A stretch of DNA of 22,881 nucleotides from a virus. Positions 4,954 to 15,328 of the stretch are shown here, piece by piece. The stretch covers positions 1 through 22,881 of the IMG/VR virus record IMGVR_UViG_3300021425_000204. The stretch is one strand, 5' to 3'. The notes below the pieces were generated by a model. It had not been told where the DNA came from. It saw only the letters and a program-made list of their open reading frames with translations, and searched no databases. Within the stretch, counting starts at the first letter, position 1, and each line of letters starts with the position of its first letter. The translations under genes and the position numbers were made by a program.

Positions 4954-5139
4954 ATGACAAAGACAGAAGAATTACTAGCTAGAATCGAAGGTCACGAAAA
5001 AGAGTGTGCTGTACGTTACGAAATGATTCAAATGCAGTTAGACGAAGGCGGTAAAAGATTTGACAAGCTAGAGCGTATGGTTCTGTCTATCTACCCTTTT
5101 ATTATAGCTAGTATTGTTGTTGCGGAGTACTTCAGATGA
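4954..5139 (+). CDS. Small tail-anchored membrane protein, XhlA-like
   Basis: A 61-residue protein with an N-terminal charged helix (about 1-40, with LLARIEGHEKE and KRFDKLERM) and a single C-terminal hydrophobic helix (about 42-59). This is the shape of the haemolysin XhlA family found next to holins in many phages, where it assists lysis. The match is by layout and short motif, not by a search. Its TGA overlaps the start of the holin gene (ATGATGC at 5136), so the two are probably translationally coupled. Confidence 0.65.
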   Translation: MTKTEELLARIEGHEKECAVRYEMIQMQLDEGGKRFDKLERMVLSIYPFIIASIVVAEYFR

Positions 5140-5480
5140 TGCAAGCACTAATTGGTCCTATTGTTAACCTTGTGGGCGGACACTTGCAGCGCAAGGCAGA
5201 AGAAAAGAAAGCTGTACATGAGCGTAAAATGGTAGCCATACAGCAAGACGCAAACTGGGAAAACATACATGCAAACAACGCGGCTAACTCGTGGAAAGAC
5301 GAATGGTTTACCATCTTGTTTTCAGTCCCTTGTGTACTTGCGTTTTTTCCCTCTATGGTTCCTGTAGTTATGGCGGGCTTTGAGGCACTAAACGGCATGC
5401 CTGAGTGGTACAAAGGATTCTTAGGTGCTGCTGTAGCAGCGTCGTTTGGGCTACGTGGTTTAGCTAACTGGAAGAAGTAA
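5136..5480 (+). CDS. Holin, three-transmembrane (phage/GTA holin) type
   Basis: The 114-residue product has an amphipathic N-terminus, a charged central segment (HLQRKAEEKKAVHERKM), the sequence NSWKDEWFTILFS, a hydrophobic hairpin at about 57-86, a Pro-Glu-Trp-Tyr turn, and a last hydrophobic helix with AAVAASFGLRG. This is the pattern of the holin family shared by phages and gene transfer agents (Holin_3TM). Holins form the inner-membrane lesions that time lysis. The start overlaps the preceding stop (ATGA), and its TAA is immediately followed by the next ATG. No lysin gene follows it, which is unusual for a holin locus. Confidence 0.8.
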   Translation: MMQALIGPIVNLVGGHLQRKAEEKKAVHERKMVAIQQDANWENIHANNAANSWKDEWFTILFSVPCVLAFFPSMVPVVMAGFEALNGMPEWYKGFLGAAVAASFGLRGLANWKK

Positions 5481-8400
5481 ATGGCATTACGACCTACTAA
5501 AGGAATGTTTACAGGATCTAAAGAGACTAAGACTTTGCCTGGAGAGTCTGGTCCTTTTGACCCTAATGCTGGCACAACAACTAATATTAAAGAGCTTCTT
5601 GATGACATTCCAGAAATGCCGGAAGATCCTGAAGAGCCGCCAAGACCTGAAGACACCATAGCTGAAGCTTTTGCAGGCTGGGACGCATTTATTGCTGAAG
5701 TTCTTCAGTACATCGAAGACCAAGCCTCTGACGACATCGACCGTGTGTACCTCGCTCAAGAGCTACAAGAGCTTCAAGATTTGTTTGAACAATATGAAGC
5801 TGGTGAAATAACCGCAGAAGAGTTTCTTGAGTTTGAACCTGACTTTATTTTTGACGTTCCAGGAGCAACAGAATATTGGGAAAACCTTAATAACGTTGTT
5901 TCTCAGTCTGAAACAGAAGCACCAGAACAAGTTTTACTTAATGAAGATGAATTTAACGAACAGTTTCCAGATATTGATCCTTCTGAATACACTGAATCAG
6001 GCACATGGACTGACCCTGAAACAGGAATTATATACGTTATTAACATCCCACCTGAAATAGAAGAACCCGAAGAAGAAGAAGAAGAAGAAGGCGGTGGTGG
6101 AGGAGGTGCAGCCGAAGAAGCTGACAAAGAGGCTGAACAATCACAGAAAGAAACAGAAGCGGAACAAACTCAAAAAGACGCTGAAGCAGAGACTACAACA
6201 AAAGAAGAGGAAGCAGCTGAAAGAGCGCAAAAGGACGCTGACGCTGAAACCCTTGATAAAGAAGAAACAAGAGCGGAAGAAGAACAAAAAGAAATAGAAG
6301 CGGAACAGTTAGATAAAGAAGCTGAGCAAGGAACTAAGGACGCTGAGCAAAGAGATAAAGAGGAGGCTGCAGAACAGGAAGCTAAGGACACTGCTGCAGA
6401 AGAATCACAAAAAGAAGCCGAAGCAGAAACTACGAGAAAAGAAGAAGAAGCTGCTGAAGAAGCAAGCAAGGAAGCTGAGGCGGAAACACAACAAAAGGAC
6501 GCCGCTGAACAACAACAAAAAGACGAAGCTTCAGAACAAAAGGCTAAGGATGAGCAGGCAGAGTTTCAAGCTAAAGAAGACGCGGAACCTCCCGTAACTG
6601 ACATTGAAACAGACGACACTACAGGTACTTCTGCTGACGTTTATTCGGGCATGGAAGACAGTATTGTTGCACGTCAAATTCATGAAGCTATTATTAATGA
6701 AACTGACCCTGAAGTTAGGGACGGATTAATTAATGATTGGGAGCGTTACACCGGACAACAGTGGGACGACACTTACTTAGAAGAAGACCCCTATGAAGAT
6801 TACGAGCCTGATGTTGATCCTCCTGAACCTGTAGGTTACGTTTATGATGAAGTAGAAGGAACAACAAGACCTGTTTATCAGTTACCTGAAGACGGTACTA
6901 CGGTTTATGACGATCCTGGTCAAGCCGAAAGCGCTTACAAAGAGCAGCAAGAAGCCGAAGCTGAAACCCGCGAAAAAGACATGGCTGAAACTCTCGAAAA
7001 AGAAGAACAAGCAGAGCAAGAAGCCGAAGAAGCAGAAAAAGAAGAGTCTGAGCGTATTTACAAAGAAGCTGAACAGTCTGAGAAAGATGCTCAAGCTGAA
7101 ACTGAGCGTAAGGAACAAGAAGCTGCCGAACGTGCTGATAAGGAAGCACGGGCTGAAACTGAACAAAAGGAAGCTGAGGCTGCTGAGAGAGCAGATAAAG
7201 AAGCTCAAGCTGAGACAGAACAAAAGGAAACTGAAGCTGCCGAACGTGCTGATAAAGAAGCTCAGGCCGAAACACAGCAAAAAGAAGAAGCTGCTGCTGA
7301 ACAAGCTGAGAAAGATGCTCAGGCTGAACAGGAATCTAAAGAAGCTGAAGAAGTAGCTAAAGACGCAGAAGAAACTGAAAAGGAACAACAAGCAGAACAA
7401 GAAGCTAAGGACACTGCCGCTGAGGAAGCACAGAAAGAAGCTGAGGCAGAAACAGCAGACAAAGAAGCTCAGGCTGCTGAAGAGGCTCAAAAGGAAGCCG
7501 AAGCAGAAACTGCTGATAAGGAAGCTCAGGCTGCTGAAGAGGCTCAAAAAGAAGCTGAAGCTGAAACACAACAGAAAGAAGAAACAGCAGCAGAAGAGGC
7601 TCAAAAGGAAGCTGAGGCAGAAACTCAGGAAAAGGACGCAGCTGAACAACAGCAAAAAGAAGCAGAAAACCAAGAGAAAGAAACTCAAGCTGAGCAACAA
7701 GAAAAAGAAGCTGAGAATCAAGAAAAGGAAGAAGCTGCTGCAGAACAAGCTAACAAAGAAGCCGAAAATCAAACTAAAGAAGAGCAAGCGGCTGAACAAG
7801 CTACTAAAGAGGCAGAGACTCAGGAAAAGGAAGAGATAGCAGCTGAGGAAGCTGAGAAGGACGCTGAGCAGACTCAGAAGGAAGCCGAAGCTGAAACTCG
7901 GGAAAAGGAAGAGGTAGCTGCTGAGGAAGCCAGAAAAGAAGCTGAAGCAGAAACCGAAGCTAAGGACGCTGAAGAGGCTGAAAAAGACGCTCAAGCTGAA
8001 ACCGAAGAGAAAGAAGAAGCTGCCGCAGAAAGAGCAGAGAAGGAAGCTCAGGCAGAAACTGAGCAAAAGGAAGAAGCAGAAGAAGCTAGAAAAGAAGAAG
8101 CCGAAGAAATAGCTAAGGAAGCTGCCGAAGAACTGCAGAAGGAAGAAGCTGAGCAGGCTGAAAAAGATCAACAAGCTGAACAAGACGCTAAGGATCAACA
8201 GGCTGCTGAAGAAGCAGATAAGGAAGCCGAAGAGCAAGCTAAGGAAGCTCAAGCAGAAACCGAAGACAAGGAAGCTGAAAACCAAGAGAAAGAAGAAGTA
8301 GCTGCAGAGGAAGCTGACAAAGAAGCTGAGGCTCAAGAGAAGGACGCTGAGGAAGAAGCCAAAGAGCAACAAGCAGCAGAGGAAGCAGATAAGGAAGCTG

Positions 8401-9365
8401 AAGAGCAACAAAAGGACGCTGAGGAAGCTGCTAAGGACGCTGAGGAAGACGAGAAGGAACAACAGGCTGCTGAAGAGGCTGACAAGGAAGCTGAGCAAAC
8501 TCAGAAGGACGCTGCGGCAGAAACTGCAGAAAAAGAAGAAGTAGCTGCCGAAGAAGCTCAGAAGGAAGCCGAAGCTGAAACAGCAGAGAAGGAAGCTGAG
8601 GACGAAGCTAAGGACGCTGAAGAGGCTGAAAAGGAAGCTGCTGCTGAGACTCAAGAGAAGGAAGAAGCTGCAGCAGAAAGGTCAGAGAAGGAAGCTACTG
8701 CTGAAACTCAGGAAAAAGAAGAAGCAGAACAAGCACGTAAAGAAGAAGCTGAGCAAGCACGTAAGGAAGAAGCAGAGCAAACACGTAAGGAAGAAGTAGC
8801 AGCAGAAGAAGCCGCTAAGGAACAAGCAGCTGAAGAGCAAGCTAAGGAACAGGCTGCTGCTGAAGAAGCCGCTAAGGAACAACAAGCGGCTGAAGAAGCT
8901 ACCAAAGACGAGAATGCTCAGAAGGACGCTAGTGCAGAAACCGAAGCTAAGGATGCTGAACAAGCCAATAAGGACGCTGCTGACGAACAGCTAGAAAAGG
9001 ATCTTGAGTCGTCTGAGCAGGAGCGTAAGGACGCTGAAGAACAAGCTAAGGACACTACAGGAACTGGAGACGGCACTGGTGACGGTACTGGTGAAGGCGA
9101 AGGTACTGGTGAAGGAACCGGAACAGGTGAAGGTACTGGAACAGGTGAAGGTACTGGTGACGGAGACGGTGTTGGTGGTACAGGCATGATGACTGCTAAG
9201 CCCAAAGAAGTTGATTTTACTAAGTTCATGTCAGGTATTACTTATGAGTTGCCCACTTTAGAAGAAATAGGTCAAGCACCACAAGTTGACTACGTAGCGT
9301 CTCTGGAAGAAACATTAGGTCCAATCGGAATAACAAGCAGTTTGTTTAAGGAATATATCGGATGA
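5481..9365 (+). CDS. Giant Glu/Lys/Ala-repeat protein, putative virion filament or tail component
   Basis: The product has 1294 residues. In order: an acidic N-terminal domain (1-~195), an E-run then a G-run (~196-208), charged repeat block 1 (~210-368), a non-repetitive acidic domain (~369-485, with Trp and Tyr), charged block 2 (~486-1190), a Gly/Thr/Glu linker (~1192-1234), and a short C-terminal domain (~1235-1294, ending LFKEYIG). The blocks repeat AE..KEAEAET..KE-type units and lack Leu, Ile and Phe almost entirely, so they look like single charged alpha-helix or very loose coiled coil, not a classic coiled coil. The gene is fused by adjacency to the holin (TAA-ATG) and overlaps the tail adaptor (ATGA). 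A virion role is inferred from this position and from the conserved-looking ends. I do not recognise a characterised homologue; similarity to SMC/SbcC-type helices would be compositional. Confidence 0.8.
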   Translation: MALRPTKGMFTGSKETKTLPGESGPFDPNAGTTTNIKELLDDIPEMPEDPEEPPRPEDTIAEAFAGWDAFIAEVLQYIEDQASDDIDRVYLAQELQELQDLFEQYEAGEITAEEFLEFEPDFIFDVPGATEYWENLNNVVSQSETEAPEQVLLNEDEFNEQFPDIDPSEYTESGTWTDPETGIIYVINIPPEIEEPEEEEEEEGGGGGGAAEEADKEAEQSQKETEAEQTQKDAEAETTTKEEEAAERAQKDADAETLDKEETRAEEEQKEIEAEQLDKEAEQGTKDAEQRDKEEAAEQEAKDTAAEESQKEAEAETTRKEEEAAEEASKEAEAETQQKDAAEQQQKDEASEQKAKDEQAEFQAKEDAEPPVTDIETDDTTGTSADVYSGMEDSIVARQIHEAIINETDPEVRDGLINDWERYTGQQWDDTYLEEDPYEDYEPDVDPPEPVGYVYDEVEGTTRPVYQLPEDGTTVYDDPGQAESAYKEQQEAEAETREKDMAETLEKEEQAEQEAEEAEKEESERIYKEAEQSEKDAQAETERKEQEAAERADKEARAETEQKEAEAAERADKEAQAETEQKETEAAERADKEAQAETQQKEEAAAEQAEKDAQAEQESKEAEEVAKDAEETEKEQQAEQEAKDTAAEEAQKEAEAETADKEAQAAEEAQKEAEAETADKEAQAAEEAQKEAEAETQQKEETAAEEAQKEAEAETQEKDAAEQQQKEAENQEKETQAEQQEKEAENQEKEEAAAEQANKEAENQTKEEQAAEQATKEAETQEKEEIAAEEAEKDAEQTQKEAEAETREKEEVAAEEARKEAEAETEAKDAEEAEKDAQAETEEKEEAAAERAEKEAQAETEQKEEAEEARKEEAEEIAKEAAEELQKEEAEQAEKDQQAEQDAKDQQAAEEADKEAEEQAKEAQAETEDKEAENQEKEEVAAEEADKEAEAQEKDAEEEAKEQQAAEEADKEAEEQQKDAEEAAKDAEEDEKEQQAAEEADKEAEQTQKDAAAETAEKEEVAAEEAQKEAEAETAEKEAEDEAKDAEEAEKEAAAETQEKEEAAAERSEKEATAETQEKEEAEQARKEEAEQARKEEAEQTRKEEVAAEEAAKEQAAEEQAKEQAAAEEAAKEQQAAEEATKDENAQKDASAETEAKDAEQANKDAADEQLEKDLESSEQERKDAEEQAKDTTGTGDGTGDGTGEGEGTGEGTGTGEGTGTGEGTGDGDGVGGTGMMTAKPKEVDFTKFMSGITYELPTLEEIGQAPQVDYVASLEETLGPIGITSSLFKEYIG
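7080..7300 (+). repeat. 57-bp (19-residue) tandem repeats, first set, in the giant repeat gene
   Basis: Three consecutive 19-residue units start with AAERADKEA and continue with an AET.QKE-type half. The codons differ between copies at synonymous sites (for example GCTGCCGAACGT versus GCTGCTGAGAGA), so the protein repeat is better kept than the DNA repeat. Boundaries are approximate. Confidence 0.75.
7422..7649 (+). repeat. 57-bp (19-residue) tandem repeats, second set, four copies
   Basis: Units start at 7422, 7479, 7536 and 7593, each encoding EEAQKEAEAET plus eight further residues. The first two are identical in protein (tail ADKEAQAA), the third and fourth diverge in the tail. Synonymous codon differences separate all copies. 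This is the clearest local period within the longer, irregular charged block. Confidence 0.85.
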
Positions 9366-10009
9366 CATACTTGAACCTTATGAACAACGTGCTACGCAGA
9401 CTGCGTGAAGAAGAAACCACGTCGGTTACTAGCACTACTTATAACAAGATGGTTAGTGACTTTATTAACGACGCTAAGAAGTTAGTAGAGGAGTCTAACG
9501 ACTGGTCAGCCTTGAGAAGCACTATTACTGTTTCTACTACAGCTGACGACAATACGTATTCCTTGACGGACTGTGGTGACAACGTAAAAGTTATGTGTGT
9601 TCTTAACGACACTAGTAACGTCTTTATGGAGTACCAAAGTAAGGACTGGTTTAACGAGCAACTGTACATCAATAACGCTGCTACAGGCGCACCTATGTAC
9701 TACACGTACAATGGCCTTGACGCTAGTGGTGACACGCAAGTACTCGTAGGTCCAACACCAGACGGTGTGTACAACTTGCGGTTTGACGTGATTAAACGAC
9801 AGGCTGACTTGAGTGCTAACACTGACACACTGCTAGTACCTTCACAACCTGTGATACACCTAGCTGTTGCTTTGTTGGCTCGTGAACGTGGTGAAACAGG
9901 AGGAACTTCTACTGCTGAGTACTTTGGTATTGCTGATAGGTACTTGTCTGACGCTATCGCAATAGACGCAGCTAAGCATCCAGAAGAAATGTACTTTAGG
10001 ACTATCTGA
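9362..10009 (+). CDS. Tail tubular protein A-like head-tail adaptor
   Basis: The 215-residue product starts MTYLNLMNNVLRRLREE and has a helical N-terminus, a beta-rich middle (NTYSLTDCGDNV to VGPTPDGVYNLRF) and a C-terminal helical part (VIHLAVALLARERGE to LSDAIAIDA). That layout matches the T7 gp11/P22 gp4-type adaptors that sit below the portal and start the tail. The following gene is gp12-like, as in T7. It starts with ATGA inside the end of the repeat-protein gene and ends one base before the next ATG. The assignment rests on fold-like pattern and order; identity to T7 gp11 is low by eye. Confidence 0.65.
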   Translation: MTYLNLMNNVLRRLREEETTSVTSTTYNKMVSDFINDAKKLVEESNDWSALRSTITVSTTADDNTYSLTDCGDNVKVMCVLNDTSNVFMEYQSKDWFNEQLYINNAATGAPMYYTYNGLDASGDTQVLVGPTPDGVYNLRFDVIKRQADLSANTDTLLVPSQPVIHLAVALLARERGETGGTSTAEYFGIADRYLSDAIAIDAAKHPEEMYFRTI

Positions 10010-10010
10010 T

Positions 10011-11519
10011 ATGGCTCAAGAACTACGTAGCATTAATCTTGTAGCACCAGCGTTCAAAGGTATTAACACCGAAGATTCGCCGTTGGCACAAGACCCGTCG
10101 TTTGCAGAGATTGCAGACAACGCTGTGATTGACAAACGTGGTCGTATTGCGGCACGTAAGGGTCATAGTGTTATTACAACTGACAAGACAGCGTTAGGCT
10201 CTGGTTCTATCAGAGCTATAAAAGAGTTTGAAAGAAGTAGTGGTAGCAACGTAGTTCTGTCTGTAGGCAACAACAAGATATTCACAGGCACTACTACGCT
10301 TACTGACGCTACACCTGGTAGCTACACGATCACAGCAGACAACTGGAAGATTGTTAACTTTAACGACAAGGCGTACTTGTTTCAAGCTTCCCATGCACCT
10401 TTGGTGTACGACGGTACTTCCGTAGTCCGTCTAGACTCAGTAGCGGGTGCTGCTGGTGTTGTGCAAGGTAATGAAGTTTGTTCTGCTTATGGGCGTCTTT
10501 GGGTAACAGGCCTTAGCACCAGTCCTTCTACTGTTTATTGGTCTGACTTGTTGATAGGTCATGACTACTCAGGCGGCACTAGTGGGTCCATTGACATATC
10601 CAAAGTCTGGCCTGACGGGTACGACGAGATTGTTGCTTTGGCTGCACACAACGGCTTCCTTATCATTTTTGGTAAGCACAGCATTGTGGTGTACCAAGGA
10701 GCAGAAGCACCAGCTACAATGACATTGGTAGACACTGTAGCAGGCGTTGGTTGTGTAGATAGAGACACTGTGCAGTACACTGGTACTGACGTACTGTTCC
10801 TATCACACACTGGTTTGAAGAGCTTTGGACGCACAATACAACAGAAGTCCATGCCTGTTAGCAGTCTGTCAGGAAACATTACTAAGGACATCATTAATGC
10901 CCTGCAGACAGAAAACACATTCTTTAGGTCTGCTTATAGCCCTGAAGAAGGTTTTTACTTACTAACTTTTGTAGGTCAGGACAATACCTACTGTTTCGAC
11001 GTTAGAGGCACAACAGAAAACGGTTCTTACCGTGTCACTCGTTGGCCTTCTACAGGCTTCACAGCCTACACACGTTTGGACAACGGTGACTTTTACATAG
11101 GTACGTCCGAAGGTATTAGTCAGTACGTGGGTTATCAGGACAACGGTTTAGGCTACCGCTTTAAGTACTACAGCCCAAGTTTGACATTTGGTGATAGCTC
11201 CCGCATCAAGATTCTTAAGAAGCTGAAGCCTACACTTGTTGGTGCTAACAACGCAACAGTATTTATGAAGTGGGCGTATGACTTTGAAGGTACGTACGCA
11301 ACAGCAGAGTTTACAGTAGGAGACCAGATTACTGGTTTCTTCGGTGAGAGCGAGTACACAACTGTGGAGTTCACAGGTGGCGCTTTGACCAACCAAAGAA
11401 GTTTAAACGCAACAGGCTACGGAACTAGTGTTGTTGTAGGTTTAGAAGCAGAGATTGACGGTTCACAGCTGTCACTACAGGAGATCAACGTAATGGCTTT
11501 GATAGGTAAATTACTATGA
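10011..11519 (+). CDS. Tail nozzle / tail tubular protein B-like (stabilisation) protein
   Basis: The 502-residue, beta-rich protein opens with a motif common in podoviral tail nozzle/stabilisation proteins: SPLAQDPSFAEIADNAVIDKRG (the 'everything assigned to a gene must be read as virion part' start), followed by blade-like repeats such as YWSDL, DEIVALAAHNGFLIIFG, VDRDTVQYTGTDVLFLS and THTGLKSFGR. These resemble the beta-propeller of P22 gp10/T7 gp12-type proteins, which close the tail tip and hold fibres. It follows the adaptor by one base and overlaps the next gene (ATGA). Confidence in the virion tail role is good; which subfamily is less sure. Confidence 0.7.
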   Translation: MAQELRSINLVAPAFKGINTEDSPLAQDPSFAEIADNAVIDKRGRIAARKGHSVITTDKTALGSGSIRAIKEFERSSGSNVVLSVGNNKIFTGTTTLTDATPGSYTITADNWKIVNFNDKAYLFQASHAPLVYDGTSVVRLDSVAGAAGVVQGNEVCSAYGRLWVTGLSTSPSTVYWSDLLIGHDYSGGTSGSIDISKVWPDGYDEIVALAAHNGFLIIFGKHSIVVYQGAEAPATMTLVDTVAGVGCVDRDTVQYTGTDVLFLSHTGLKSFGRTIQQKSMPVSSLSGNITKDIINALQTENTFFRSAYSPEEGFYLLTFVGQDNTYCFDVRGTTENGSYRVTRWPSTGFTAYTRLDNGDFYIGTSEGISQYVGYQDNGLGYRFKYYSPSLTFGDSSRIKILKKLKPTLVGANNATVFMKWAYDFEGTYATAEFTVGDQITGFFGESEYTTVEFTGGALTNQRSLNATGYGTSVVVGLEAEIDGSQLSLQEINVMALIGKLL

Positions 11520-12364
11520 TAGATTTAAATCAATTATTAGGTTTAGGTGCTTTAGGCGCTGGTGGTTTACTTACAGGTAAAGCTTATCAACGCCTTGGCG
11601 AAATTGGTGAACAAGCAAGAAGGGAAGCAGGCGACATTGCTACTACTGGTGTAGAGCAAACACGGTTTATGCCCTTCACAGTAACGACAGGAACAGGAGG
11701 AGCATTAACTACTACTCCTGAAGGTGGTCTTACTGTAGGCTTGTCTCCAGAGGAACAAGCGTTCCAACAGCAGATGTTTGGAGGTGCAGGTCAGTTTTAT
11801 CAACAGGCTATGCAACCTACGCAGGCACGTGAGCAGGCTGTCTTTGAACGAATTAGGGAAGCACAACGTCCTGAAGAGGAACGTCAGAGGCTTGCTACTG
11901 AAGAGCGTCTAGCGGCACAAGGACGCTTAGGTTTGCGTACAGCGCAGTTCGGAGGCGCTCCTGAGCAGTTTGCTTTGGCTAAGGCTCAGGAAGAAGCACG
12001 TAACCAAGCGATGCTAAGTGCAATGCAACAGGCGCAAGCTGAGCAGATGCAACAGGCACAGCTAGGTGGTCAGTTCATGGGCGCTAGTTACACACCTCAA
12101 GCGCAAGCATTGAACGTCCTACAAGCAGGTATGCCAGCTGCACAAATGGCGCAACGTGGTCAGCTGACTGGTGCTGGTTTGTTCGGTGAAGCACAAATGG
12201 GTGGACTTGAGGCACTGCTTGGTTCAGGTCTTGGACAAGCTAACCTCTACGGTCAACTAGGTACTGGTCTCCTGTCAGGACTGTTGACACCACAGCAAGT
12301 TGGCATGGGTGGCGGTGTTACTGAGATTGTTAACCCACTGTTTGATCTACTAGGTATAGGTTAA
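11516..12364 (+). CDS. Probable ejection / internal virion protein, Gly-Gln-Ala rich
   Basis: This 282-residue protein has a hydrophobic Leu/Gly/Ala N-terminus (about 6-24), a linker with Thr and Gly, a long helical region rich in Gln, Glu, Arg and Ala (about 80-190, including an AQFGGAPEQFALAKAQEEA stretch) and a Gly/Leu-rich C-terminus with further weakly hydrophobic segments. Composition and position directly after the tail nozzle gene fit small ejection proteins (as T7 gp13/gp14), which enter the host envelope on DNA delivery. There is no recognisable catalytic motif. It starts by ATGA overlap with the preceding gene and is followed by a strong ribosome site for the next. Confidence 0.6.
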   Translation: MIDLNQLLGLGALGAGGLLTGKAYQRLGEIGEQARREAGDIATTGVEQTRFMPFTVTTGTGGALTTTPEGGLTVGLSPEEQAFQQQMFGGAGQFYQQAMQPTQAREQAVFERIREAQRPEEERQRLATEERLAAQGRLGLRTAQFGGAPEQFALAKAQEEARNQAMLSAMQQAQAEQMQQAQLGGQFMGASYTPQAQALNVLQAGMPAAQMAQRGQLTGAGLFGEAQMGGLEALLGSGLGQANLYGQLGTGLLSGLLTPQQVGMGGGVTEIVNPLFDLLGIG

Positions 12365-12370
12365 GAGGAG
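12364..12370 (+). promoter_or_regulatory. Strong ribosome binding site before the 12378 gene
   Basis: AGAGGAG is seven bases before ATG 12378. It is one of the few strong, non-overlapping ribosome sites in the rightward block, suggesting higher translation of this probable virion protein than of its ATGA-coupled neighbours. Confidence 0.6.
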
Positions 12371-12377
12371 AAAACTA

Positions 12378-13532
12378 ATGGCTAAGTTTTCACAAGGAAT
12401 AATACAGGGTCTTATGCAGCCTGCATTTGGTCAAAACCTGTATGAAGTAGGTAGAGCAGCAGCAGCTGGTCCTGCTATGACTAGAGCGTCACAGCGAATG
12501 AAGGAACAACGTGAGCAAACTCAACGTGGCGTTACTGGTGGTTTGTTTGGTTTGGAACAGGCAGCAGCAGAAGGCCGTGACTACCAAGAAGCTATCGGTT
12601 CCCTTGTTGGCTTAGGTGCTACACCTGAGCAGATTGCACAGGCAGAACAGCGTGGACAAGTTAAGCGTCAGGCTACTGTTCAACAACAGCAAGCAGAGCA
12701 GAACGAAACTCAAAGACAACGTCTTGAGGTTGATGCAATAGCAAAAGCAGAGGAACAAGGCAGGGACGACATAGCTGACGGTCTTAAAGGAGCTAGCGAA
12801 AAAACATTACGTGATTATTTACTAAAAGACATTAGCCCACAAGGAGAATGGAAGTCTCTAGGTGGAGACAGTAATACGTTGTTCAACTCTACAACAGGAG
12901 AAACTAAAACAGTTTCAGTAGGTGACGCCTCAGCAGTACCTCAGCTTAAGCCCGAAGAAGTAGCAAAACTAGCCAAAGAAGGTCTCATTGATATGAATTC
13001 TTTCTTAGATTTTGCTAGAGGTGGTTTTAAAGACTACAACACACTACAACCAACGGCTCAAACAGAAGACAAAGAGGCTCCTGTTATTGCTTCTTCTTTA
13101 AAAGCAGCAGACAACGTTTTGCAAACTATCGACAAAGCCCTAGATTTAACAGGAGACTACTGGAGATTAACTTACGACATAGGTAAGTTTAGCCCAGCTG
13201 GACAGTCTCGTCCTTTGGCTAACAAAATAAACACGCTAAAGGCTAATCTTTCGTTTGATAGACTGCAAAAAATGAGAGACGAGTCTAAGACAGGTGGTGC
13301 TTTGGGTCAAGTATCTAATATTGAACTTAGATTATTAGGCTCTTCCGTTGCTGAACTAGACCCAGCTTCAGAAGATTTTAAACAACAACTACAAACTGTA
13401 AGGAGACATTACGAGTCATTCAAAGCGTCCTTGCTTGGTCAAAAGCCACCAGGCGAACGCTACATTGAAAACGAAGGTAATTTATATTACGTAGATGATG
13501 ACGGTAATTTTGTTGATCTTGGAGAAATGTAA
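12378..13532 (+). CDS. Probable internal virion protein, helical
   Basis: The start is fixed by AGAGGAG (12364-12370), seven bases before the ATG. The 384-residue product has a Gly/Ala N-terminus (residues 1-40), a Gln/Glu/Arg-rich helical region (about 40-130), a mixed central region, a helical segment with KAADNVLQTIDKALDLTGDY, and a tail ending YYVDDDGNFVDLGEM. No enzyme motif is visible. Position second in the three-gene run after the nozzle gene, and the helical composition, suggest an ejection protein of the T7 gp14/gp15 kind. Identification of a specific homologue is not possible by eye. Confidence 0.6.
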   Translation: MAKFSQGIIQGLMQPAFGQNLYEVGRAAAAGPAMTRASQRMKEQREQTQRGVTGGLFGLEQAAAEGRDYQEAIGSLVGLGATPEQIAQAEQRGQVKRQATVQQQQAEQNETQRQRLEVDAIAKAEEQGRDDIADGLKGASEKTLRDYLLKDISPQGEWKSLGGDSNTLFNSTTGETKTVSVGDASAVPQLKPEEVAKLAKEGLIDMNSFLDFARGGFKDYNTLQPTAQTEDKEAPVIASSLKAADNVLQTIDKALDLTGDYWRLTYDIGKFSPAGQSRPLANKINTLKANLSFDRLQKMRDESKTGGALGQVSNIELRLLGSSVAELDPASEDFKQQLQTVRRHYESFKASLLGQKPPGERYIENEGNLYYVDDDGNFVDLGEM

Positions 13533-13534
13533 TA

Positions 13535-15328
13535 ATGTCTGTAGTTACTGATCCTGAACTGATAAAGAAGTTAAAGGAAAAACAACAAAAGGATATTGAC
13601 ACACCTGTTGGTGTTGTTACTGACCCTGAGTTGATAAAGACCCTTCAACAAAAACAAACTAAGCTGATCGAAGACATGCCTGTTGAGCCTGTTGAAGACA
13701 CTAAACCTTCTGCAGTTGAGGAAGGTAGTGTTATAGGTGACTTTGGTAGGACTGCTGCGTCTATCGCTACTGCAATCGCTGCAGAACCTTTAGCAGGTCT
13801 CTACGGTCTAGCTTCTTATGCTGCAACAGGAGGAGACTTTAGAAGAGCCGTCAAAGACATTGAACAAGCAAAGCAAACACTTACTTATATGCCAGAAACC
13901 AAAGGTTCTCAAGAATCACTACAGGCTATCGGTGAGTTTATGGCTCCTTTAGCTGAAGGTATAGAAACTGTAAGTGACAATTTTGCTGACGTTACTTTTG
14001 AGTACACAGGATCACCTAATTTAGCTGGTGTTGCTGCTGCTGTTCCTTTAGTAGCTTTGGAATTAGCAGGTATAAAAGGAGTTCGTGCAGCAGGAGGTGG
14101 CGTTGTAAAACTAAAGGATGCAGACATAAGAAAAGCGCAGAAAGCGTCTTTGTTAGATCCTGAATTAAAGTACGACGGTTCCGTAGCGGAAGTTAAGCTT
14201 GATCCAAAAGGCCGTCTTGTTGAAGACAAAGTAGGCAAAAAACTAGTGGAAAACGGCATAAGAGAAAACGACGTTGCTGTAATTACCAAAAGTTCAAAGC
14301 CTACAAAAACTCAAATGAAAGAAATGATTAAAGTGTTTGAAGCAGGCAGAGGTAATGATGTAGTTGCTATGTCAAGCAGAACTACTAAGCCTATTGGTGT
14401 TTCTATAACTAATCGACTTCAATCGTTAAAAACAACAAGAGCGGGTTTAGGCAGAAGACTACAGGGCATTGTTGATAGTGACTTAGGCAACACAAAAGTA
14501 GACATTAGTTCCTCTATGGACGAAATAAACAAGACCCTTAATGCTGAAGGAATAAAGCCTAGAGTTAATGCTCAAGGTAAAATTGTATTGCCAAAGGACT
14601 GGTACAAAGGTACTCGTTTTGAATTAAAGTCTTTAGCGGGTGTTCGTAGAACTATAGAAGACTCTTACAAGTTAATGTCTATGACTTCTACTTATGGTGT
14701 TACAGATTTAAAATCAGCGCATAAACTAAAGAAAAACTTAGACGAAATGATAGACGCTTCTAAGTTAACTGAAGACGGCGTACCTGCAAACACTATTAGA
14801 CAAGTAGCTAATATGCGAGCACGTGTAAACGCAGAGCTTTCTAAAGTTCCTGAGTACGCTTCAGTTAATAAGGAATTAGCCAATGTAATTCAAGCTATGG
14901 CTCCTTTTGAAAAGTATTTAAAGCCAGGACAAAGCTGGTCAGATGCCAAAGTTGTAGAAGTAGTAGGAGCTTCAATGAAGAATTTAGCGTCCGATTCTGC
15001 TAGTGCGTCTTCTCTTGTACAGGACTTAGCAGCAATGGAAAAGTACATGAGACAAGCAGGCATTGCTTTTGGTGATGATCCTAAAGCTTTAATACGATTT
15101 AGGCAAACTCTTTCTGAAAATTTCAATGTCGTGACTCCTTCTGCAGATGGTGCAGTAGGTAGAACAGTGGGTTCAGCTGCTGTTTCTCTTGCTTTAGGAA
15201 ACAAGTTTGGTGCTGGTCACGATGCTGCTCGATTAATAGGAGCAGGGATGAAAAAAAGAGAAGCAAAGAAGATTGCAAATCAAAATAAGAAAGCATTCAA
15301 CTTAATGAAGATGGCGGTAAACGAATAA
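13535..15328 (+). CDS. Large internal virion (ejection) protein
   Basis: This 597-residue protein is the last gene of the rightward block. Residues 3-19 and 27-43 are a duplicated VVTDPELIK-x-L motif with a 24-residue period. Two Ala/Gly/Leu-rich hydrophobic segments follow (about 72-98 and 161-181), which could insert in a membrane. The remainder is mostly charged helices, with a basic tail (KKREAKKIANQNKK). Membrane-capable segments plus helices at the end of a tail-gene run fit the long ejection proteins (T7 gp15/gp16 position), though it is much shorter than T7 gp16 and shows no lytic transglycosylase motif. The stop lies three bases before the shared hairpin terminator. Confidence 0.6.
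   Translation: MSVVTDPELIKKLKEKQQKDIDTPVGVVTDPELIKTLQQKQTKLIEDMPVEPVEDTKPSAVEEGSVIGDFGRTAASIATAIAAEPLAGLYGLASYAATGGDFRRAVKDIEQAKQTLTYMPETKGSQESLQAIGEFMAPLAEGIETVSDNFADVTFEYTGSPNLAGVAAAVPLVALELAGIKGVRAAGGGVVKLKDADIRKAQKASLLDPELKYDGSVAEVKLDPKGRLVEDKVGKKLVENGIRENDVAVITKSSKPTKTQMKEMIKVFEAGRGNDVVAMSSRTTKPIGVSITNRLQSLKTTRAGLGRRLQGIVDSDLGNTKVDISSSMDEINKTLNAEGIKPRVNAQGKIVLPKDWYKGTRFELKSLAGVRRTIEDSYKLMSMTSTYGVTDLKSAHKLKKNLDEMIDASKLTEDGVPANTIRQVANMRARVNAELSKVPEYASVNKELANVIQAMAPFEKYLKPGQSWSDAKVVEVVGASMKNLASDSASASSLVQDLAAMEKYMRQAGIAFGDDPKALIRFRQTLSENFNVVTPSADGAVGRTVGSAAVSLALGNKFGAGHDAARLIGAGMKKREAKKIANQNKKAFNLMKMAVNE
13541..13660 (+). repeat. 72-bp-period tandem duplication at the ejection protein N-terminus
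   Basis: Two in-frame copies, starting at 13541 and 13613, encode VVTDPELIKKLKEKQQK and VVTDPELIKTLQQKQTK. The bases differ at several synonymous sites, so this is not a recent copy. A short DPELIxxL linear motif kept twice suggests a binding peptide. Confidence 0.8.

Follow-up and report, generated by a model that had tools for sequence, protein, structure and literature searches.

The window analysed here, a 22,881-nt stretch of viral DNA (positions 1–22,881 of IMG/VR record IMGVR_UViG_3300021425_000204), encodes directly upstream of a tail adaptor gene a long acidic modular protein of 1294 residues, hereafter LONG. Its open reading frame (ORF), which an original prediction had picked out from the sequence alone, is real; it starts with ATG, and its stop overlaps the following ATG at 9362. 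The earlier description of an acidic N-domain, a hinge (Gly/Thr/Asp/Glu) and a short C-domain holds, as does that of two charged blocks nearly free of Leu, Ile, Val and Phe; it lacked a middle domain at residues 368–483 and the repeat rule of the charged arrays. The protein is laid out as follows.

5481–9365, + strand: LONG, long acidic modular protein of 1294 aa, a putative virion-anchored fibre; gene at the same position in 141/141 related loci
5481–5585, + strand: N-terminal tail, residues 1–35, with the short motif KGMFTG...LPGESGPFDPN
5613–6071, + strand: acidic N-domain, residues 45–197; alpha/beta in the AlphaFold2 (AF2) model, with predicted local distance difference test (pLDDT) values mostly 75–85
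6108–6581, + strand: block 1, residues 210–367 (~158 residues), the first AExxxK[E/D] array
6582–6929, + strand: middle domain, residues 368–483 (116 residues), non-repetitive; 70–79% identity in ten other loci
6930–9047, + strand: block 2, residues 484–1189 (~706 residues), the second array, with 81 lysines
9054–9188, + strand: Gly/Thr/Asp/Glu hinge, residues 1192–1236, recognised from its sequence; tandem repeats
9189–9362, + strand: putative C-terminal anchor, residues 1237–1294, with the family signature FxPFMxx[LI]xYxP...DYxxxL

The apolar residues L, I, V, F, M, W, Y and C together make up 2.5% of block 1 and 2.1% of block 2. Block 2 consists of 34% E, 5% D, 11.5% K and 2.3% R, with 0% Pro or Gly. 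Net charge is −38 in block 1 and −182 over the 706 residues of block 2, or about −0.25 to −0.26 per residue. The motif AExxxK[E/D] occurs 95 times in the whole protein, as 95 distinct 21-mers at the nucleotide level and 66 distinct 7-mer peptides. In block 2, Glu occupies position −4 of 80/80 testable lysines, Glu or Asp follows 81/81 lysines at +1, and Ala lies at −5 in 76/80; the three x positions follow no such rule beyond the absence of Ala from the first. Consecutive motifs are separated by spacers of 0 (22 cases), 1 (10), 2 (31) or 3 residues (24), and seven spacers are longer. Composition shuffles of block 2 yield 2.9 motifs, never more than 10, and first-order Markov sequences yield 11, at most 22, where 76 are observed. 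Across the LONG family described below (loci designated L), 807/999 distinct lysine contexts take the form AExxxK[E/D] and a further 77/999 the form AExxK[E/D]. The shorter form dominates in L061, where E and K are spaced at i+3, also a helical pairing; L009 and L013 are looser, a good few of their lysines falling outside either form.

Recent DNA slippage is ruled out as the source of the arrays by the divergence of the motif copies, 95/95 of which differ at the 21-nt level with freely varying codons. A DNA-level signal (AARGA, Shine–Dalgarno-like) is likewise ruled out, with K codons silently changed in 165/714 comparisons. Protease avoidance through an acid after Lys is not general, as Arg within the array often has no acid after it; among lysines outside arrays, only 175/1121 are followed by an acid. 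A cellular origin of the motif was also rejected, the GTDB matches listed being mainly either perfect repeats of short length or generic K/E-rich proteins in which many lysines do not belong to the motif. A 590-aa antisense ORF (window 6882–8654, − strand) is a by-product of the array codon pattern and not a gene.

The arrays evolve under strong constraint. Between related phages, the ratio of non-synonymous to synonymous substitution rates (dN/dS) of the arrays is mostly 0.05–0.14 (lowest 0.03), compared with 0.26 for the C-domain of LONG, and all 73/73 aligned lysines are conserved between the window and its close relative L002. We then counted codon changes position by position in 13 pairs, which are not independent, using only well-aligned stretches (local identity at least 0.7) and taking the x positions under the same identity filter as a control for the motif positions. 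Residue-altering changes number 0/133 at the motif Glu and 0/165 at the Lys (together 0/298), 9/196 at the Ala, and 51/125 at the last acid, all of these being Glu–Asp swaps. The three x positions changed in 65/200, 120/230 and 121/244 cases (306/674, 45%).

The spacing of charges in the arrays is of the alpha-helix type. In block 2, pairs of E with K at +4 number 80 against 28 expected (z 14.4), the enrichment of opposite-charge pairs that characterises a single alpha-helix (SAH), and the reverse K-to-E pair at +4 is slightly depleted. Acid–acid pairs are depleted at +1 (z −8.1), +3 (z −2.6) and +4 (z −3.5) and enriched at +5 (z 7.2). No continuous hydrophobic seam is present, as expected of an SAH: the coherence R of the apolar stripe is 0.34 for the array against 0.29 ± 0.03 for shuffles, and 0.62, 0.53 and 0.69 for the coiled-coil middles of the relatives L071, L034 and L185. 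A constant seam is lacking because the unit spacing mixes 7, 8, 9 and 10 residues. The stripe test rules out a canonical coiled coil, with no heptad or hendecad apolar periodicity and only ~2% L/I/V/M/F/W/Y/C, and so bears out the original view that ordinary coiled-coil packing is unlikely. AF2, run on residues 1–520, returns one continuous helix of 140 residues in block 1 (226–365, pLDDT mostly 80–89). The array is best read as a highly negative, non-bundling single helix, which would presumably form in solution. Of the stiff single helix of about 100 nm first suggested, the alpha-helix is upheld by the E-to-K enrichment, the acid–acid depletion and the AF2 model, but the straight rod of that length is weakened. 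At 1.5 Å per residue the contour would be ~24 nm for block 1 and 106 nm for block 2, the figure near 100 nm thus being the contour length of block 2 only, and a net charge of −0.26 per residue is unlike that of charge-balanced SAHs. SAHs have persistence lengths of no more than a few tens of nm, so a worm-like filament is likelier than a straight rod.

LONG belongs to a large family defined by its position. With the neighbouring adaptor as bait, each scan of IMG/VR returned 480–525 stretches encoding an adaptor relative, and we inspected 141 loci. In 83 of them the ORF immediately upstream of the adaptor is complete and at least 400 aa long; 57 are cut by a contig edge and one (L014) is apparently broken. 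The stop of the ORF at the LONG position overlaps the adaptor start by 4 nt (ATGA) in 133/141 loci. Complete members range from 411 to 2042 aa, and in a rule-based sorting of their middles the motif array accounts for 24, GFATPED-type repeats for 16, GFATPED repeats plus collagen for 6, collagen for 4 and Cys-rich middles for 4; the remaining 29/83 have coiled-coil or disordered middles, that of L048 being clearly disordered in look. Pfam matches identify collagen (PF01391) in L063, L103 and L186, and DUF4214 in L164. The collagen repeats imply three chains in the relatives that carry them and, by extension, a possible trimer throughout the family. The C-termini share the pattern FxPFMxx[LI]xYxP...DYxxxL, often ending in GM[LF]. 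LONG is the most acidic protein in each phage checked (net charge per residue −0.11 to −0.24 in the family versus −0.11 to +0.04 for other proteins of at least 200 aa). A DNA pattern scan of IMG/VR independent of the adaptor found arrays in diverged relatives too, among the matches listed; there, every array ORF with at least 15 motifs and its downstream flank in hand adjoins this adaptor, even where adaptor identity falls to 52%.

At the other end of the protein, residues 1–44 are 77–84% identical to those of L034, L037 and L038, whose K-poor middles are unrelated, and the window N-domain has weak homology with the Cys-rich-type relatives L161 and L164. Many relatives carry Gly/Ala-rich hydrophobic helices, membrane-active in look, in an N-domain that is absent from the window protein. 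Searches with masked ends, as first proposed, retrieved this large family and no known non-structural family. The window N-domain had no match in named phages in the masked-end search, the conserved N-domain of a relative and the Cys-rich variant matched no known family, and fold searches of PDB and viral structures, including the window N-domain against PDB, gave no match; sequence and fold searches alike may miss distant homologues, and the fold searches with the N-domain common to many relatives say little, given its poor model (mean pLDDT 53). No description of such an array protein turned up in searches of the literature, and within the collections searched the earlier statement that it has no characterised counterpart holds.

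Several variants of the family are worth recording. In the Cys-rich version (L141, L161, L163, L164 and L165) Cys makes up 4–6% of the protein, with repeats such as CPEGTxKAGQTVSxLxDCG, and nearly all other members are Cys-free. In L105, L111, L152 and L186 the LONG position is taken up by extended stretches of 'NAGFATPEDVGTAL...', a short helical repeat with no fitting Pfam name. The diverged L319, L357, L375, L401 and others combine AExxxKD arrays with Gly-containing 'TKDGE' or 'SKDGEVETTLPDG' repeats before the C-terminus, in which Lys is again followed by Asp. A short motif GM[LF][TSV] lies at residues 7–10 of the window protein and again at the C-terminus of many family members, and [KSGT]GM[LF] is confined to the LONG-family protein in the proteomes searched. 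An apparent frameshift within the repeat array of G002/L010 and of L014 reflects either an assembly error or a broken gene.

LONG undergoes sharp allele swaps between phages that are otherwise 97–100% identical, as comparison of their sequences reveals. L061 is 97% identical to the window until exactly position 5481 and then unrelated as far as the adaptor. In L002 the far flanks are 98–100% identical to the window, the first ~1600 nt of LONG are replaced, and the remainder is ~91% identical. Adaptors are more than 80% identical across middle types, and comparable variation between relatives is seen in the tail fibre and in the final two + strand genes. The genes surrounding LONG are listed here.

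1–2646, + strand: separate tail fibre with a C-terminal S74 chaperone, cut at the window edge; distinct from LONG
5136–5480, + strand: holin-position gene of 114 aa, directly upstream of LONG; matches unnamed phrog_2524 only
9362–10009, + strand: tail adaptor, SU10_adaptor family (Pfam SU10_adaptor 60.7 bits, cut-off 27); ATGA overlap with LONG
10011–11519, + strand: nozzle, P22 gp10-like tail protein (phrog_5107; phrog_578, head closure); homologues annotated as phage stabilization or tail structure
11516–15328, + strand: three genes (282, 384 and 597 aa) assigned by position as candidate ejection-protein genes; the last two variable

Of the two neighbours named originally, the tail adaptor is confirmed downstream and the upstream holin in part, in that its positional counterpart in G001, a near-complete relative of 37.4 kb, is a clear holin (phrog_3427; PF11351, GTA_holin_3TM, 75.5 bits). 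The order in G001 is terminase, portal, scaffold, capsid, tail fibre, DUF7936, small genes, holin, LONG, adaptor and nozzle, after which come three ejection-position genes, then, on the opposite strand, ribonucleotide reductase (RNR) and replication genes. By RNR and primase, the nearest named phages are roseobacter and pelagibacter podophages (~50–64% identity). The window protein had no profile match to tape measure proteins, its surrounding genes being podoviral (adaptor, P22 gp10-like nozzle); one relative gave a weak low-complexity match to the tape measure phrog_4197.

We tentatively favour a reading of LONG as a long modular fibre of a marine short-tailed phage, with its C-terminus docked at the neck or tail and the array serving as a helical spacer. 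The conserved C-terminal ~50 residues would dock the protein in the adaptor/nozzle region, the exchangeable N-terminal domains would lie at the far end, and the spacer between them would differ from phage to phage. Within each array unit, Glu may form an ion pair with the Lys four residues further along the same helix (i to i+4), as in designed AEAAAKEAAAKE helices, and the acids at −4 and +1 would thus cage each lysine. A single alpha-helix this negative would neither bundle with its neighbours nor stick to DNA and, over contours of ~24 nm and 106 nm, would be semi-flexible at that distance rather than straight; it would serve as an extended spacer that does not stick and that holds out the N-terminal domain. 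Against the choice first offered of a tail whisker, an ejected tether or a filament crossing the envelope, an outside fibre is favoured because collagen, Cys-rich and DUF4214 modules occupy the same slot in relatives. Several observations weigh against this reading. The phage already encodes a separate tail fibre gene, tblastn detected no adaptor homologue in the nearest named phages, and no relative was detected in any named or cultured phage. Block 2 lacks the balance of E and K/R seen in SAHs, and it carries a far larger net negative charge than the SAHs that have been studied; the AF2 helix was built from an alignment of six sequences only, by a method prone to over-predicting long helices for such sequences. 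Lys is moreover fully fixed, with 0 Arg in 165 codon changes, seemingly more strictly than helix stability requires. Arg-rich designed SAHs aggregate (PMC5347031), which may be one reason for Lys-only arrays. It is also conceivable, if unlikely, that the array is more than a spacer, a protein polyelectrolyte of ~100 strictly constrained sites in which each caged lysine is individually required. The lysines would then serve either binding or covalent chemistry repeated along the array, or the building of helical filaments that do not bundle, a class used by phages on their particles interchangeably with collagen and coiled coils.

Other roles can be set against a fibre. LONG could be packaged inside the virion, in the head or tail, and leave it on ejection to make or steer a route through the envelope, its acidic rod avoiding sticking to DNA and to the tail channel. 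Large ejected proteins are known in other podophages. The gene sits in the tail operon, the hydrophobic N-domain helices of many relatives would suit contact with membranes, and SU10 ejects five proteins (PMC9509320). We nevertheless consider this improbable, as that N-domain is missing from the window protein, three other genes already fill the ejection-protein position, and collagen triple helices, Cys-rich repeats and DUF4214 better fit an exposed fibre. The net charge of −0.26 per residue, together with family middles such as that of L048, would accommodate a disordered polyanionic brush within a virion fibre in place of a helix, but E-to-K pairing at i+4, depletion of acid–acid pairs at i+3 and i+4 and avoidance of Pro and Gly are helix signatures that a coil does not need, and with the AF2 helix they make the brush rather less probable still.

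Two further proposals appear quite doubtful. P22-like needles have a variable distal part, and LONG, elongated with one conserved end, could be a trimeric tail needle or plug whose conserved end closes the nozzle in place of a P22 gp26-type gene, none having been recognised after the nozzle. Its family shows no needle-family match, spans 411–2042 aa with collagen and Cys-rich variants unlike known needles, and its gene precedes the adaptor rather than following the nozzle. The adjoining holin-position gene would allow a late cytoplasmic or lysis-time factor, outside the virion and co-transcribed by chance; there is equally little to recommend this, given the translational overlap with the adaptor in 133/141 loci, the structural-type modules, the lack of an apparent signal peptide, and an allelic exchange resembling that of a host-recognition gene.

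The fibre reading has partial precedents. The long tail fibres of SU10, gp12 and gp13 on gp11 (PMC9509320), are likewise elongated, modular and exchangeable and encoded in a structural operon with an SU10_adaptor-family adaptor, although in LONG the conserved end is the C-terminus, an S74 tail fibre is encoded besides, and the window protein matches no tail-fibre family, only the collagen-bearing L063 and L103 matching tail-fibre PHROGs. The hinge gives weak low-complexity matches to phrog_11232 and a TrAA12-like family, the Pfam one below cut-off, from which we infer no homology. SAH or ER-K domains of myosin-6 and myosin-10 (PMC5347031, PMC4183817) resemble the array in being E/K-rich, stabilised by i to i+3/i+4 Glu–Lys/Arg pairs (PMC4183817), free of a hydrophobic seam and predicted to form a long monomeric helix. 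They are near charge-balanced, however, with K/R runs and variable patterns, whereas the array has 11.5% K and 2% R, each block 2 lysine in one fixed context, and a net charge of ~−0.26 per residue. Also comparable are the designed (i+4)E,K helices of Marqusee & Baldwin 1987 (as cited in PMC7175214) and the EAAAK linkers, of which the peptide AEAAAKEAAAKEAAAKA is a rigid monomeric helical linker (PMC7175214). They share with the array the A-E-x-x-x-K-E unit, the Glu-first pairing with Lys at +4, an Ala-rich composition and the separation of domains; the array differs in being natural and strongly net negative, with ~95 units, polar x positions and spacers of mostly 0–3 residues instead of a fixed 5-residue period.

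The array is a natural counterpart of such engineered rigid helical linkers, and on the virion it probably forms an extended, charged rod. Charged repeats of low complexity tend to be written off as filler that drifts; this one follows an almost exception-free four-position rule. It provides a natural test of the length limit of a single ion-paired helix and of the retention of Lys over Arg, and the arrays together give protein engineers a collection of helical spacers, long and soluble, that natural selection has shaped. The LONG position is a hypervariable slot by the adaptor in which unrelated fibrous modules are exchanged among uncultured marine podophages, probably reflecting host reach or recognition.

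The neighbouring genes and relatives yielded some minor observations. The 282-aa protein (window 11516–12364) contains RFMPFTVTTGTGG, like the FxPF part of the C-terminal signature, and may share a docking site. The two genes that follow it at the ejection-protein position (12378–13532 and 13535–15328) are hypervariable, the 597-aa protein having no similarity to its 898- and 905-aa counterparts in the close relatives G001 and G006. In G021, the 58-kb contig of L099, two adaptor genes lie ~36 kb apart, owing to tandem genome copies, a chimera or a real duplication. Nozzle-family proteins of H13, H20 and H21 (Slicky01, CHOED) are labelled in public databases as 'dimodular nonribosomal peptide synthetase' or 'amidase', almost certainly a misannotation, and G001 carries a QueC-like queuosine biosynthesis gene (30899–31588) between its portal and scaffold genes.

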